NCBI GenBank assembly: GCA_011321935.1
Contig: DROJ01000242.1
Span: forward strand, 1-32,630
Origin: Bacteroidota bacterium
GTDB taxonomy: Bacteria; Bacteroidota; Bacteroidia; Chitinophagales; Saprospiraceae
DNA length: 32,630 nucleotides
Direction: 5' to 3'
Numbering within the stretch: position 1 is the first letter of the stretch; each line of letters begins with the position of its first letter. A program made the position numbers and the translations under genes. This document shows, in pieces, positions 9,794 through 28,650 of this stretch. The notes under the pieces were generated by a model that was given only the letters and a program-made list of their open reading frames with translations, was not told the DNA's origin and searched no databases.

Positions 9794-10198
9794 TTAATTT
9801 TGTGGCCGATCATATTGGCAACAACCGGGAAGGGCATTATATACCTCGTCTTTTGCCCGGAACTTATCCGTATCGTGGCCTGCCGCCGCTACCTTCTTTT
9901 TAATGTCGTCCAATGAAATGGCATCACTGTCATATTTGACGGTCATTACTTTGTTGTCCACGTCCCAGTCGGTAGAATGGATACCTTCCACAATTGCGAG
10001 GGCCGTTTCAATTCTGTTTTCGCACATGCCACAATTCCCGTAAACCATAAAAATATCAGTGGTTTCACTGACAACTTTCTTTTTGGGTTTTTCGGCTTTT
10101 GGCGCGTGGCTGTGGTTGCCATGGTCATGCTGTGCTTGCACCTGAACGCCGAGGAAAAGGAAAAAGCACATGCTGAAAATTACACTTAAATGTTTCAT
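9794..10198 (-). CDS. Secreted HMA-domain copper/heavy-metal chaperone
   Basis: A 134-residue protein. It has a signal peptide (residues 1-22, ending VQAQ), a His-rich mature N-terminus (HDHGNHSH), a Lys-rich linker, and an HMA domain (about residues 46-115) with NCGMCENRIE, where Cys56 and Cys59 form the CxxC metal site. A second cysteine pair lies near the end in LPGCCQYDRP. HMA proteins bind soft monovalent or divalent metals, here most likely Cu(I). Being exported, it would carry or buffer copper in the periplasm, perhaps handing it to the multicopper oxidase or the CusB adaptor. It is downstream of the DUF2231 gene with a 33-bp palindrome in between. Mercury (MerP-like) is an alternative, but no mer genes are present. 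Confidence 0.88.
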   Translation of the reverse strand: MKHLSVIFSMCFFLFLGVQVQAQHDHGNHSHAPKAEKPKKKVVSETTDIFMVYGNCGMCENRIETALAIVEGIHSTDWDVDNKVMTVKYDSDAISLDDIKKKVAAAGHDTDKFRAKDEVYNALPGCCQYDRPQN

Positions 10199-10230: not shown

Positions 10231-10263
10231 ACGTTTACTAAACTTTTAAAGTTTAGTAAACGT
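10231..10263. repeat. 33-bp perfect palindrome, same core as the one inside cusA
   Basis: Arms acgtttactaaacttt and their exact reverse complement are separated by one T. The 29-nt core matches that of the palindrome at 22934-22966 in the cusA coding sequence except for the central base. It lies 33 nt upstream of the HMA protein start. The rest of this 161-nt gap holds a weaker hairpin near 10321-10348. Confidence 0.85.
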
Positions 10264-10359: not shown

Positions 10360-11028
10360 TTAATGGGAATGCGTCGCATTTTCGAGATATTTGCCTTGCA
10401 CGCCTATACCGTGCAAATGAGTTAGAGCCGCACCATAATGCCCCGCCTGCCCTACCGTATATGCCGAAAAAAACAAAACAGCGGCCACGAGTATTTCTCC
10501 CCATAATTTTCTATTTAAAAAAAAATGACTTATTGTTTTTAGCACAAGGGCCGCTATACTCCCCCATTTAGCATAAGCCGCATATTCTTCGTGCAATGTC
10601 AAAAGTTGGGCAGCAATATCGTTCAGTTCGCCCGTATGCGGGTGGGCAAAATTGGAGGCTATATAGGCACCGGCAGCCCCTCCCGCTAATAAGAGCAAAG
10701 TCACCATGCTCAGTTCTTTTCCCCAAATAAAAAAGGAGGCCAATTGGGTTAAAAAAGCAATTAAAAGAAGTACTATCGGAAAATGCACGATCATTGGGTG
10801 CTTGCTCGGAAACTCGCTCAAACCGGGATCTGTACTCATACTGAAAGGGGCCATTTCTTCATGGCCGTTGTGCATATGCCCGTCCTCCATTGTTGCTATT
10901 TCGGCAGTATCTGCGGCCGTTGCCTGTTCTTCTTTTTTTTCTTCTTCTTGGTCGTCATCGCCGCCGTGCGCATTGGCCGGGAGGCTAAAAAGGAAAAGGC
11001 TGGCAGTAATAAAAATTAATGTTTTCAT
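10360..11028 (-). CDS. DUF2231-like membrane protein with His/acidic N-terminal segment
   Basis: A 222-residue protein. A signal peptide (about residues 1-20) precedes an exposed acidic and His/Met-rich stretch (DGHMHNGHEEM, about residues 21-62). Then come four transmembrane segments, the first opening with HPMIVHFPIVLLL, the mark of DUF2231, and later ASNFAHPHTGEL. The C-terminus has HYGAALTHLHGIGV and ends in HSH. The repeated His pairs inside and near the membrane suggest haem or metal ligation, as proposed for related membrane proteins. It follows the small 41-residue membrane peptide by 56 nt and lies in the copper cluster, so a role in copper or electron handling at the inner membrane is likely but not shown. 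Confidence 0.82.
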   Translation of the reverse strand: MKTLIFITASLFLFSLPANAHGGDDDQEEEKKEEQATAADTAEIATMEDGHMHNGHEEMAPFSMSTDPGLSEFPSKHPMIVHFPIVLLLIAFLTQLASFFIWGKELSMVTLLLLAGGAAGAYIASNFAHPHTGELNDIAAQLLTLHEEYAAYAKWGSIAALVLKTISHFFLNRKLWGEILVAAVLFFSAYTVGQAGHYGAALTHLHGIGVQGKYLENATHSH

Positions 11029-21016: not shown

Positions 21017-24000
21017 TTATTTAGCAATATTCAATTTAATTTCCTCCCACAAAGAAAACAGCACCGGCACCGTAAACATGGTAATCATTTGCAACGTCAT
21101 GCCCCCAAAAGAAGGGATGGCCATCGGCAGCATAATATCCGCACCCCGCCCGGTAGAGGTCAGCACGGGCAATAAAGCCAAAACGGTAGTGGCCGTGGTC
21201 ATCATGGCGGGGCGCACCCGTCGCTGACCACCTTCCACCACGGCGTCCCTGATCCCCGCGATAGTATTTGGTTTATTGTTTTTAAAACTGCTCTGCAAAA
21301 AAGTAGCGACCAATACGCCGTCGTCGGTAGCAATGCCGAACAATGCAATAAACCCGACCCATACTGCGACCGATAAATTAATGGTCCGTATTTGGAAAAG
21401 TTCCCGCATATTGGCACCGAAAAAATTAAAATTCATAAACCAATCGGTATCATATAAACCGATCATTATAAAGCCTCCGGCAAATGCGATAAACACCCCA
21501 GAAAAAACCATTACCGAAACGGATATTGATTTAAATTGAAAATATAAAATAAGGAATATAATAGCGAGCGCAATCGGCATCACAATGCTCAGCCGTTTGC
21601 TTGCACGCACCTGCTGCTCATAATTTCCGGCAAAGCGGTAGCTGATGCCCGCCGGCACGACCAATGTTCCGTTGTCTATATTTTCCTTTAAATATGCCTG
21701 CGCATTTTTGACCACCTGCACTTCCGAATATCCTTTTTCTTTATCGAACAGCACATATCCGATCAAAAAACCGTCCTCGCTTTTTATGGACTGTGCGCCC
21801 GCTTCATAGCGGACGGTCATCAGTTCGCCGAGCGGTATTTGTTTCCCTGCAGAGGTCGGCACATATATCCGTTTTAATGCTTCGGGGTCGCTGCGCAGTT
21901 CGCGCGGGTAGCGGATGCGGATGGCATAGCGTTCGCGGCCTTCCACGGTCGTTGTCATTTCCATGCCGCCGACTGCGGCCTGTATATATTGTTGCACTTT
22001 TGCAATCGTCAGTCCATACCTGCTGATGGCCTCCCTGTTTATATCCAATAATAAATAGGGTTTTCCGACAATTCGGTCGGCAAATACGGCGGCATCTTTT
22101 ACGCCTTCTATATTTTTTAAACGTTTTTCCAGTTCCAATCCAAATGCCTCGATAGTGGCCAAATCCGAACCGCGGACTTTAATTCCCATCGGTGCGCGCA
22201 TGCCCGTTTGCAACATGACGAGGCGGGTTTCGATGGGCTGCAATTTTGGCGCAGAAGTAACGCCGGGCAATTGGGTGGCGTTTACGATTTCGTTCCATAT
22301 ATCGTCGGGGCTGTGTATATGGTCACGCCATTGCCGGAAATATTGGCCTTTTTTATCGGGAATCAGTTCGCCATATTTATCGCGCGTATACTCTCCGTCT
22401 TTATATTTATACCGGATGCGGTGGCCGTCCTTGTCTGTTTTATATTCCGATTTATATAGGATGATATTTTCGTACATCGAGAGAGGTGCGGGATCGAGCG
22501 CACTATTGATGCGGCCTGCTTTTCCGACCACCGTTTCCACTTCGGGAATTGCCGTTACGGCCATATCGAGCAGACGGAGGTTTTTAAGGTTTTCCTGCAT
22601 ACCGGCATGGGGCATGGAAGTTGGCATCAACAAAAAAGACCCCTCGTCCAATGAGGGCATAAACTCCTGCCCCGTTTTTTGAAAAGCCACAAAACCCTGA
22701 TATATAATAAAGCCGACGGCCAATAAAAAGAGCAATTTAAAGCGCAGCAAAAAGCGCAATATTTTTTCATAAAAATAAATAATGACAAAGAAAAAACCGA
22801 TCAATGTGCCTGCCACTACTACCACAAAAAGGAAATTGGCGACAGCGCTTTTGGTCACGCCGAGCGGCATCCAGACCGACGACAACAACCAAGCGACTAT
22901 AAGTGCATAAATTATATTGGTCAGCCAATTTACAGGTTTACTAAACTTTGAAAGTTTAGTAAACCTGACATCATTAAAGATTTGATGAAGTATGCCGGCC
23001 ATGCCGACCACGGCCAATACCGCCCCCAAAAAAGGTTGGTATAAAAATGCAATTATAGCCCCGGCAATTATAGCCAGCCCATTGCCGATATAAGGCAATA
23101 ATTTCTTTTTTGGTTTAATAGAAAATATACTGTGCGCCAATGCTGGGACTATGGTAACGGCCACAATAATAGAAGCGACCAGCGCAAATGTTTTGGTAAA
23201 TGCCAGTGGTTTAAATAATTTGCCTTCCGCCGCTTCCATCGTAAATACGGGAATAAAACTTATTATAGTTGTGGCCACCGCCGTAATTACTGCCGACGCC
23301 ACTTCCACCGTCGCTTCGTATATACTTTCCAAAACAGATTCGCCGGGGGGGGGCGAGGCCATGCGCGCCACCATGCTTTCGGTCAGCACGATGCCCATGT
23401 CCACCATGGTGCCGATGGCAATGGCGATGCCCGACAGCGCAACTATATTGGCGTCCACGCCAAAATATTTCATGGCAATAAAACACATCAGCACAGCCAC
23501 GGGCAAGGTGCCCGAGACCAACAGGGAAGACTTCAAGTTGAGGAGCATTAGTATCACCACAATTATAGTGATAAGTATTTCAAGCGTGAGGGCTTCCTGC
23601 AATGTGCCGATGGTTTCATTTATTAATTGTGTGCGGTCATAAAAGGGGATAATTTTGACCTGTGAAACGGTGCCGTCTTTTAATGTTTTGCTGGCGAGGC
23701 CGGGTTCGAGTTCCGCTATTTTTGCTTTTACATTTTGGATGACCTCCAATGGGTTGGCGCCATACCTTGCCACCACTACCCCACCGACGGCCTCCGCCCC
23801 CGATTTGTCCAAAACGCCACGTCGCGCGGCAGGGCCTATATTTACTTTGGCCACGTCGCCTATATTTATCGGGACATTATTGGTTGATTTAATTACGCTG
23901 TTTTCAATGTCCGCTATATTTTTTACATATCCGAGGCCGCGCACAAAATATTCCGCCAAATTAATTTCTATGGTCTGTGCGCCCACATCTATATTACTGC

Positions 24001-25814: not shown

Positions 25815-25849
25815 ATGCCCCGCCAAATTTATATGGCATACCAGACCGC

Positions 25850-25883
25850 TTTAGGTTTTCCCGAACCTTCGGGAAAACCTAAA
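25850..25883. repeat. 16-bp palindromic hairpin in the leader of the FG-GAP gene
   Basis: tttaggttttcccgaa and its exact complement are separated by two bases. The core phrase ggttttcccga recurs in the arms of the long inverted repeat at 24733-24897, so the two may be related elements. It lies 31 nt before the ATG at 25915. Confidence 0.8.
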
Positions 25884-25914
25884 ATGGTCAAGTATAGGTT
25901 CCAACTGCATCGTT

Positions 25915-28650
25915 ATGTTCCGAAATTCATTTCTTAAAATTTCGCTCCCAGCATTTTTGTGGTGTTTTGCCCTGTTCTCAAATGGGCAAGAAGTATCCTT
26001 TTCCTATCAGGCCGCCCTGCTCAATCCAGTATCGGGTTTCACCACTTACGCCGATTGTGCGGTTGACATGAACGGCGACTTTTTGGATGATGTGGTACGG
26101 GTGGGCAACAAAGTCCTCTATATTGATTTTCAAAAAAAAGAAGGCGGTTTTTCACAAAAAAATTTCCCGCTCATTGTCCAAAACCCTCCCGATTGGAGCA
26201 TCTGCGCCGGAGATTTGGACAACAACGGTTTCAACGATTTGCAGTTCGCAAGCGGCTCGGCAGTTTCTTTTGTGTACGCCAACGAAATGGGTTCTGGTTA
26301 CCTGGAATCGCTCATGCCCGATAGTATCCTCAGCCAACGTTCAACGATGGCAGACATCAACAACGACGGCTGGCTCGATGCTTTTGTCTGCCATGACATC
26401 GGCCAATCCCTTCCGTTCAAAAATGATGGAACAGGACAAATGGCATCCGACACCAACCTCATTCACACTTCCACTTTGCCGGGCAATTATGCAGCTATCT
26501 GGACAGACTATGACCACGACGGCGACACCGACCTTTACATCAGCAAATGCCTTTCCGGTGCCCCTCCGGGAAACCCGTCCCGAACAAATTTACTGTACCA
26601 AAACAATGGCGACGGCTCTTTTTCAGAAGTGGCCGGACTGGCCGGGCTGAACGACAATTCGCAATCATGGAGCACCGTGTTCGAGGACTTCGACAACGAC
26701 GGCGACATGGACGCTTTCATTGTCAACCACGATTTTAAAAACCGACTGCTCCGCAATAATGGGGACGGAACTTTTACCGATGTAATAGACAGTTCCGGCA
26801 TTGACCCAGAAGACCTAGGGGCTTGGGAAAACACCGCCGCCGATTTTAACAACGATGGCTTTGCCGATATTTTTTCTGACCTGTCAAACGAACTCTACCT
26901 GGGCAATGGCGACCTCACTTTCGTCGGCCAATCGGTACCGACCATCCCCGGGAGCATTGCCGATCTGAACAACGACGGCTACCTCGACGTGTACCGGGCC
27001 AACCAACTTTGGATGAACGATGGCGGCCCTTTCCATTGGTTGAAAGTGAACCTCTTTGGCATCGAAAGCAACCGGAACGGCATTGGGGCAAGGGTAGAAA
27101 TATACGGCGCATGGGGCATACAGGTGCGGGAAATGCGCTCTGGGCAAGGCTTTAGCCCAATGAATTCGCTGAACCTGCACTTTGGCCTGGGGCAAGAAAA
27201 ACAGGTGGATTCTTTGCTGGTAAAATGGCCGTCGGGCATTGTCAGCAAACTGGAAAACCTGCAGGCCGATAGCAGCTACCTCGTGCCAGAAGCTGCCTGC
27301 CTGCTGCCTTTTACTTTGATAAATGCGGATGAATACAAGCTCTGCCCCGGCGATACTATTTTGCTGGAAGCCCCTGCCGGCTTTTCACAATACCGCTGGT
27401 CGAACGGGCAAACATCGCAGCTTGCACACCTCACCAAAGCAGGCCGGTATTTTGTGTTGATGACCGATAGCGAGGGCTGCACCAGCCTTTCCAATTTTAT
27501 AAAAATAGAAGAAAAAAAAGATGTGCCGCCCTCTATTTTTGCCGTTCCGGCAAAACGCCGGTGTGAGGGCAACAGCATCGAATTAGTTGTTTCTCATGGC
27601 CAAAACCCTATTTGGTCAAATGGCCTGACAGGGCAGCGCACCGATGTTTTGGCAAGCGGAAATTACTCCGTCTCGGTGGATGCGGCCTGTGCCGGAGGGC
27701 AACTTGTTTCCCTGCCCTTCGAGGTGGAAATTTTACCAGCACCGCCGCCCCTAATCGCCGATATCAGCATTGGCGCGGGAGACTCCGTGCTACTTGTTGC
27801 CGATAGCGAAAACTGCTACTGGTACGACCAGCCAATGGCTGAAATTCCTTTGCACATCGGCTCTGTTTTCCAAACGCCGCCGCTCACGTCCGACACGGTT
27901 TTTTATGTAGAAACGCATTATGAATATCCAGCCGAAATGCAAGTGGGGGGCAAGCTGGACATGCTCGGCGATGGGGGCGTTTCACAACAGACCGGGTATC
28001 AATTGTTCGATGCTTGGCAGCCTTTCATTTTACGTTCGGTGGATGTTTATTTGCCGCCGGAGTCAGCCGAAGGCTTCCGTTTTGTGCAGCTTTTTTCTGA
28101 GGACACCTTGCTTGCATTTAAGCAATTTGAGGTGCAGACCGGGTGGAACGAAGTGCAATTGGATTTTGATGTTCCCGTCGGGAAATTAAGCCTGCATTGC
28201 CCGCAGGGCGTACTTTTCCGAAATACTGGCCAGCTCGGTTATCCCTTTCCAATCGGCGATGTAGGGCAGGTCACCTCCTCCTCTTTTGGCGAAGGCTATT
28301 ATTACTATTTCTACAATTGGAAAATAGAAACCCGTGCATCCGACTGCGTTTCAGAGAGGGTTTCTGTGGAAGTTTTGATTTCGGGGAATGATGAAACCCA
28401 TTTACAGGAAGGCATCGGCATTTTTCCAAACCCAAGCAGCGGCACCCTTTATTTTAAACAAAAAAAACAAGCGGCAAAACCTGCCATGCTCCGGCTCTAC
28501 GACATTGCGGGAAGAGAGGTTTTCCATCAAAAAATAGCAGTGGAAGAGGTTTCTGCCATTCAATTATACAACCTTCCTGCCGGCATTTATTTGTTGAAAT
28601 ACCAACAGGAGGGCGGCCGCTTTTTTTATGAAAAACTAATCCTGAAATAA
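25915..28650 (+). CDS. Secreted FG-GAP/VCBS repeat protein with ASPIC/UnbV, Ig-like and T9SS domains
   Basis: A 911-residue protein. A signal peptide (about residues 1-24) precedes FG-GAP/VCBS repeats with calcium-type loops (DNDGDMDAF, NNGDGTFTDV, DFNNDGFADIF, DLNNDGYLDVY), which should build a beta-propeller. An ASPIC/UnbV domain follows (about residues 382-442, GIGARVEIYGAWGIQVREM, SLLVKWPSG). Next come two Ig-like modules with RWSNGQTSQLAHLTKAGRYF and IWSNGLTGQ, related to the modules of the next gene. The tail is a type A T9SS domain (GIFPNPSSGTLYFK ... AGIYLLKYQQ ... FYEKLILK). It is expected at or outside the cell surface. Exact role is unknown; such proteins are linked to binding or polymer use. 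It lies 50 nt upstream of the adhesin gene, in the same direction. Confidence 0.93.
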   Translation: MFRNSFLKISLPAFLWCFALFSNGQEVSFSYQAALLNPVSGFTTYADCAVDMNGDFLDDVVRVGNKVLYIDFQKKEGGFSQKNFPLIVQNPPDWSICAGDLDNNGFNDLQFASGSAVSFVYANEMGSGYLESLMPDSILSQRSTMADINNDGWLDAFVCHDIGQSLPFKNDGTGQMASDTNLIHTSTLPGNYAAIWTDYDHDGDTDLYISKCLSGAPPGNPSRTNLLYQNNGDGSFSEVAGLAGLNDNSQSWSTVFEDFDNDGDMDAFIVNHDFKNRLLRNNGDGTFTDVIDSSGIDPEDLGAWENTAADFNNDGFADIFSDLSNELYLGNGDLTFVGQSVPTIPGSIADLNNDGYLDVYRANQLWMNDGGPFHWLKVNLFGIESNRNGIGARVEIYGAWGIQVREMRSGQGFSPMNSLNLHFGLGQEKQVDSLLVKWPSGIVSKLENLQADSSYLVPEAACLLPFTLINADEYKLCPGDTILLEAPAGFSQYRWSNGQTSQLAHLTKAGRYFVLMTDSEGCTSLSNFIKIEEKKDVPPSIFAVPAKRRCEGNSIELVVSHGQNPIWSNGLTGQRTDVLASGNYSVSVDAACAGGQLVSLPFEVEILPAPPPLIADISIGAGDSVLLVADSENCYWYDQPMAEIPLHIGSVFQTPPLTSDTVFYVETHYEYPAEMQVGGKLDMLGDGGVSQQTGYQLFDAWQPFILRSVDVYLPPESAEGFRFVQLFSEDTLLAFKQFEVQTGWNEVQLDFDVPVGKLSLHCPQGVLFRNTGQLGYPFPIGDVGQVTSSSFGEGYYYYFYNWKIETRASDCVSERVSVEVLISGNDETHLQEGIGIFPNPSSGTLYFKQKKQAAKPAMLRLYDIAGREVFHQKIAVEEVSAIQLYNLPAGIYLLKYQQEGGRFFYEKLILK

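Follow-up and report, generated by a model that had tools for sequence, protein, structure and literature searches.

A 33-bp REP-like palindrome linked to RAYT-type genes in Saprospiraceae, with a copy in frame in cusA

RAYTs (REP-associated tyrosine transposases) are regarded as domesticated, and REPs are taken to be extragenic. The available sections of one account place REPs near the 3′ ends of genes and describe some of them as intragenic (PMC3733652). Subclass 2.6 of TnpA_Y1 (Bertels group 5), in the excerpts available, is found mostly in Bacteroidetes, has atypical flanking structures without GT[AG]G that are copied elsewhere, and carries NH[LIV]H and YIH[QN]NP motifs at a median HUH-Y distance of 82 (PMC6006769); a 21-aa insertion between alphaC and beta4 is also part of its definition. 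The RPEs of Rickettsia, in the portions available of two sources, are palindromic, about 150 bp long, and lie in frame in unrelated genes (PMC10969869, PMC3733652).

Here we analyse a segment of the efflux-pump gene cusA in a stretch of 32,630 nucleotides (the window, contig DROJ01000242.1) from a Saprospiraceae bacterium. The segment matches a dispersed family of 33-bp palindromes, and both the family and its link to RAYT-type genes are well supported, while movement of the units is an inference. In our preferred reading, to which we give a probability of roughly 0.72, the cusA segment is a copy of a REP-like palindrome belonging to a Saprospiraceae RAYT (HUH/Y1) system, moved in trans, which most likely arrived in cusA before this genome split from its relative G010.

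The palindrome in cusA and its family

The + strand of the cusA unit (Table 1) reads AGGTTTACTAAACTTT-G-AAAGTTTAGTAAACCT, two complementary 16-nt arms around one centre base. The word 'perfect' applies to the arms only, because a palindrome of odd length cannot be self-complementary at its centre. One more pair can be added, giving 17-nt arms and a span of 22933-22967. On the minus strand, in the cusA frame, the unit encodes RFTKLSKFSKP (residues 575-585). A sequence-only reading of the window had described a 33-bp palindrome occupying these 11 codons and sharing a 29-nt core with an intergenic site; its coordinates and sequence are correct, and the core does recur at the second site, with a different centre base. 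Both neighbours of the intergenic copy are on the minus strand; it follows the stop of a DUF2231 gene (10360-11028) by 96 bp and precedes the start of an HMA-domain gene (9794-10198) by 32 bp.

Table 1. Coordinates in the window of the cusA unit, its core, the host gene and the second copy
Feature	Position	Strand	Remarks
33-bp palindromic unit in cusA, AG-core-CT form	22934..22966		+ strand centre G; codons 575-585
29-nt family core, GTTTACTAAACTTTNAAAGTTTAGTAAAC	22936..22964		used for match search in genome and window
cusA, RND heavy-metal efflux pump, 1223 aa	21017..24688	-	ACR_tran (Pfam), E 7.5e-178
intergenic core copy, AC-core-GT form	10231..10263		T centre; 29-nt core at 10233-10261

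In the alignment with E. coli CusA, residues 519-635, which hold the unit, fall between two matching stretches; this region has no counterpart in the E. coli protein, and the loop that carries the unit is variable. A low-confidence model of residues 450-740 (mean pLDDT 65.8, pTM 0.44) places the unit over a turn and the beginning of the helix that follows. Two other structures were seen in the window. One, AGCACTGTTAGCGCTAATAGTGCT at 2335-2358, looks like a shortened form of a different 33-bp palindrome found in the same genome (AGTGCTGTTAGCGCT..., locus L156, 1406), and a strong hairpin at 25838-25895 (TTTAGGTTTTCCCGAA..TTCGGGAAAACCTAAA), single in the stretches scanned, lies just upstream of a 911-aa ORF at 25915.

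The core is matched twice in the window at up to 3 mismatches and never in 100 shuffles of it. In the genome that holds this cusA (W, also G000; 6.74 Mb in 633 contigs, 94.26% complete) the genome-wide count that the sequence-only reading had proposed gave 71 places at the same threshold, so the core is not single-copy, and 0 places for a reversed control pattern. With neither the control pattern nor the window shuffles giving a match, a chance origin of the core matches was rejected. Exact cores in W number at least 52 (52 were counted in fetched stretches): 47 with A or T at the centre and at least 5 with G or C among the matches listed. At up to 2 mismatches the core was found in 10 of the 60 genomes searched, W included, with 70 places in W, 38 in G007, 6 each in G008 and G014, 5 in G031, 3 in G028 and one each in G001, G003, G010 and G035. 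The distribution is patchy even within one genus, where W has 70, G007 38, G008 6 and G010 1, and 8 of the 14 genomes have none.

Exact cores also occur in other Saprospiraceae. At least 93 stretches with the core were returned by a scan of named genomes, and the 80 listed come nearly all from Saprospiraceae, Chitinophagales or unspecified Bacteroidota bins; two are from one Flavobacteriaceae bin and two from one Thermoanaerobaculia bin, which may be mis-binned. No exact core was present in viral_contigs, which was searched for viral carriage. When flanking proteins were compared, no position was common to the fetched copies of W and the copies from the relatives compared, with the exception of murD, which was seen later.

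The size of the unit follows from pairing outside the core. Of 148 distinct exact cores with flanks, taken from all loci, 144 have a complementary first outside pair (C-G 98, G-C 30, T-A 14, A-T 2), the base varying while the pairing is kept; the second is complementary in 142 (A-T in 134), and the third in only 48. Complementarity thus stops after the second outside pair, which makes the unit 33 bp long. Independent support comes from a survey of odd-centred perfect palindromes with arms of at least 10 nt, in 134 gene-homology loci (550,411 bases, five W and G010 loci known to hold units being left out), which found two with 10-nt arms, five with arms of exactly 16 and none with arms of 11-15 or more than 16. 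Outside the group of GTTTAC-type palindromes, 16-nt arms were present in 11 of 25 distinct palindromes from all loci. Sub-palindromes inside the arms were considered as a general rule and rejected, as only 7 of 15 typed units exceeded shuffles (P < 0.05), three of which belong to the GTTTAC group.

The strict symmetry of the unit, the two 11-bp palindromes that each unit contains, and its exact recurrence across genera could also be expected of a selected site for a regulator or nucleoid protein that is not mobile. We consider such a site very unlikely given the 70 copies in W against 1 in G010 of the same genus (up to 2 mismatches), the different positions in different species, and the existence of tandem arrays, of copies within another repeat and of copies round RAYT-type genes.

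Several larger arrangements contain the core. Loci L260-L289 of G000 (L261 and L262, for example) hold a repeat with ends ATGCGAATAACGGGT and ACCCGTTATTCGCAT and the core at its centre; the core is intact in 19 of the 30 locus rows, and 9 rows (7 distinct places) carry a variant with the inner hairpin TCCCGAATTCACTTCGGGA. At 6844 in L063 the core is central in a perfect palindrome whose arms extend 33 bp beyond it on each side. Six tandem core copies, one with a mismatch, are spaced at 96 bp in G000:C358:2267-2775 (L167).

RAYT-type genes and placement of the copies

In a Saprospiraceae bin (L128), an ORF at 573-1274 is flanked immediately by exact cores, one at 546-574 and the other at 1302-1330. 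A related ORF of G007 (L190, C2:52000-60000; 58% over 205 aa) lies within minisatellite-like arrays of the palindrome, whose periods are about 51, 57 and 58-59 bp. Both proteins match the NCBIfam family REP_Tyr_transpos (NF047646), with E values of 5.7e-16 and 2e-13 and an HUH motif, at scores of 58.7 and 50.4 bits that fall below the curated cut-off of 80 bits; one of the two also has a marginal Pfam Y1_Tnp match. RAYT-type genes lie between GTTTAC-type palindromes at L128, L190/L363, L364 and L365, all in relatives of W. The four GTTTAC-type proteins have NHIH or NHFH as HUH motif, YIHHNP as Y motif, an HUH-Y distance of 88 and a visible C-terminal SS motif.

The association is wider than this one palindrome. 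Thirty saved RAYT loci, some weak matches among which have no HuH motif, were surveyed for palindromes with arms of at least 10 nt within 350 bp, and in nine the same or a near-identical palindrome stands on both sides (L363, L364, L365, L372, L375, L377, L379, L380, L383). A partly related pair flanks L387, nine loci have a palindrome on one side only, and none was detected at 11. The palindrome sequence differs between RAYT lineages, and 13 of 15 typed units, some of them hand-trimmed, are 33 bp long, the other two being 34 and 35 bp.

A cognate transposase of the TnpA-REP type had been expected in the same genome and was not found there: proteins of the L190 type are matched in 36 of the 60 genomes and not in W, whose assembly is 94% complete. 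W holds three IS200-type matches and one weak RAYT-like match, none of which adjoins a core. The units could in principle have been moved by these IS200-type transposases and not by a RAYT, and one of the three does share a short contig (C59) with a core copy; that gene, however, is flanked by long hairpins of another sequence, and with no core adjoining any of the four Y1 genes of W we regard this mover as the least probable of the explanations considered. We favour a cognate RAYT that would move the units in trans as single-strand hairpins, by analogy with what has been proposed for other REPs.

Placement relative to genes was summarized, with crude ORF calls, for 41 distinct copies of W and 100 from other genomes. 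Between co-directional genes the median distance to the upstream stop is 19 nt in W and 36 nt in the others, and that to the next start is 148 and 100 nt. Copies lie between convergent genes in 19 cases and between divergent genes in 9, a count that includes copies inside the other repeat and rests on the same crude ORF calls. This proximity to upstream stops, together with the convergent excess, is what a transcript hairpin (a terminator or 3′-end stabiliser) present in cusA by happenstance would produce. The core, however, has no T-run, REPs in general are placed alike as far as the available part of their description goes (PMC3733652), and copies lie in frame inside genes, so that a mainly transcriptional role appears most improbable to us.

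Eight copies of W fall in ORFs, but five of them stand in tandem within one AT-rich ORF of doubtful status. Of 52 exact copies, 3 are in credible genes, namely cusA, xdhA (which encodes the small subunit of an enzyme resembling xanthine dehydrogenase) and a lipoprotein-like gene that has no Pfam match. In other genomes 5 copies are in ORFs, of which 2 are credible, a restriction-enzyme-like protein of G007 and a mega-enzyme of G008, and both units lie in linkers between Pfam domains. The restriction-enzyme-like protein (L205, G007 C17) also contains, separately from the palindrome, a stretch of PVPVGTYTGT-type repeats.

In-frame units and slots shared by orthologues

The cusA of G010 is the nearest found: it is 85% identical to that of W across the gene, with differences at 230 of 376 fourfold sites, and has a loop of equal length, RFIGFSKFRNP. 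This loop shares 24 of 33 bases with the unit and is non-palindromic, with 9 of 16 pairs complementary, no higher than the background of 7-10 of 16 in 29 other CusA homologues retained after 248 genomes of the family were searched. The loop is 2-6 residues shorter in 28 of these 29, by 3 residues in 22, and their best identity to the 33-mer is 13-19 of 33 bases; the conservation in distant CusA proteins that the earlier reading had named as evidence against itself is therefore absent from this set. The clean 11-residue empty site that it had proposed to look for in relatives was not found, the usual difference being 3 residues, and no clean empty site was obtained for any copy. The idea of a mobile REP-type repeat turned coding accordingly holds in part: the dispersed family and the same palindrome beside RAYT-type genes in relatives bear it out, whereas a simple insertion accounts for the cusA loop only in part.

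In the CusA tree, the trio of W, G010 and L228 has UFBoot 95, and L228 has a short loop of 36 residues; since it groups with the other two, a single gain in the ancestor of W and G010 is unproved. The cusA of G098 has a 39-residue loop, equal to that of W, and groups far off. It was considered as a decayed third copy and rejected for its distance from W and G010 in the tree; its bases gave no clear polarisation of the loop change.

The cusA case had been presented as a rare clear one, and it is not alone: W has at least three further in-frame places, with two units in xdhA and one each in murD and the lipoprotein gene. In 3 of 30 murD loci, those of W (TFTKLYKFSKR), G010 (RFTKLQKFSKP) and G012 (RFRKSSRFPKS), the gene contains a 33-mer in which 14 or more of the 16 pairs are complementary, all at one codon. 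The G010 unit is the only core place of that genome at up to 2 mismatches, and the G012 unit is a perfect palindrome of clearly different sequence (23 of 33 bases shared with the cusA unit). Relative to the usual murD, W gains 11 codons and G010 and G012 gain 4 each. Across the three murD sequences, 6 of the 16 pairs changed on both sides and 0 on one side, 8 are invariant and 2 have unpaired cells only; six two-sided changes were reached by 2 of 500 shuffles and slid controls gave 0-1, which, with three sequences, is modest evidence. The idea that W and G010 conserve the murD unit more strongly at the DNA level than the rest of the gene found no support, as 150 of 445 other 11-codon windows have equally few differences.

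The first xdhA unit of W is of the GTTTAC type and lies in the linker after the 2Fe-2S domains, which has 15 residues against 9-10 in other homologues; the second, earlier in the gene, has 15 of 16 pairs. At the same linker slot G010 has an unlike perfect unit that keeps the phase but is shifted by one codon at its 5′ side, and G012 has a further distinct unit in the matching linker of a 37%-identical XdhA paralogue, about five residues further on. A CusA paralogue of G012 (L041) has a unit too, in the same loop. In the lipoprotein, G010 is one residue shorter and has only a half-like stretch (18 of 33), and others are mostly 3-5 residues shorter.

These comparisons also bear on whether there was an insertion in cusA at all. 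A native loop, older and equally long, could have become palindromic in this lineage through replacement or conversion from other copies, as is suggested by the length, base identity and background palindromicity of the G010 loop, by the equally long loop of the distant G098, and by net gains that are usually far below 11 codons (cusA +3, xdhA linker +5, murD +4 in G010 and G012). On the other side, point drift cannot account for an exact match when the unit has at least 52 exact copies in the genome, and the gain in the murD of W is exactly 11 codons. We judge such a change in place unlikely, though of some weight.

Under the preferred reading, arrival of a mobile unit, insertions would be frame-neutral since 33 bp is a multiple of three, and copies landing in surface loops or linkers would survive because the unit amounts to 11 codons and two of the six core frames are open, the centre base permitting. 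As fewer than 11 codons were gained at most sites, native codons would have been lost with or after arrival, or replaced by the unit. The cusA unit most likely arrived before W split from G010 and then decayed in G010; about eight native cusA codons would have gone with its arrival, to leave the net gain of 3 over most homologues, and this is the least certain step. In favour of the preferred reading are also the patchy copy numbers within one genus, the different positions of copies in relatives, and a G010 loop closer to the unit than that of any other homologue. Several results count against it: no RAYT of this type was found in W, no copy gave a clean empty site, the G010 loop pairs no better than background, L228 groups with W and G010 in the tree, only 9 of 30 RAYT loci have matching palindromes on both sides, and the two RAYT-type proteins score below the family cut-off.

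Slots shared by unlike yet symmetric sequences suggest that the unit is renewed in place, and independent landing in tolerant loops is a possible alternative. We only tentatively propose that slots last: an in-frame unit would be renewed whole, in both arms, through hairpin-templated correction or by exchange for a unit from a different RAYT family, and orthologues would thereby keep an 11-codon cassette at one codon while its sequence changes.

Comparison with described systems

The units form a RAYT-linked class of repeats whose size preserves the reading frame whatever its sequence, and in-frame units occur in pumps and in cell-wall, redox and restriction enzymes. With unlike symmetric units at one codon in orthologues, it becomes testable whether arm complementarity is kept by repair, by selection or by exchange of elements, and whether proteins regularly acquire new loops from short mobile palindromes. 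In the literature searched, where most subscription papers were beyond reach, we found no description of the 33-bp unit; two papers that contain the sequence of its half-core are unrelated, judging by their titles.

Like canonical REPs and REPINs, as far as the available sections describe them, the unit is short, present in many near-identical copies, mostly extragenic and downstream of genes near their 3′ ends, tied to a RAYT and sometimes intragenic (PMC3733652); the same palindrome adjoins a RAYT gene in relatives and not in W. Unlike the REPs and REPINs with a GTAG foot, it has no GTAG/CGTC foot, the flanks varying beyond 33 bp, it has no orientation, being fully symmetric, and it measures exactly 33 bp. 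IS200/IS605 transposases are alike at the family level in their HUH/Y1 chemistry, but those of W lie between other, longer hairpins. With RPEs the units share palindromic repeats in frame in unrelated genes; they differ from those elements of about 150 bp with a conserved peptide in having 33 bp, sharp ends and 11 codons, and in their RAYT link, which the available portions of the RPE sources do not describe (PMC10969869, PMC3733652).

Among the closest known systems are the REPtrons of subclass 2.6, set out above from the excerpts available (PMC6006769), which have in common with the units a RAYT-type HUH gene mostly of Bacteroidetes (Bacteroidota), structures without GT[AG]G that are copied elsewhere, and a C-terminal SS motif. 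The four GTTTAC-type proteins have NHFH or NHIH, YIHHNP and a distance of 88, where that text gives NH[LIV]H, YIH[QN]NP and a median of 82 (PMC6006769). The same excerpts describe the repeats of the subclass only as atypical structures, and weaker ones, and make no mention of a fixed size of 33 bp, in-frame copies or shared slots (PMC6006769). Set against that partial text, subclass 2.6 REPtrons are known in outline, while the fixed 33-bp size and the sharing of slots look new.
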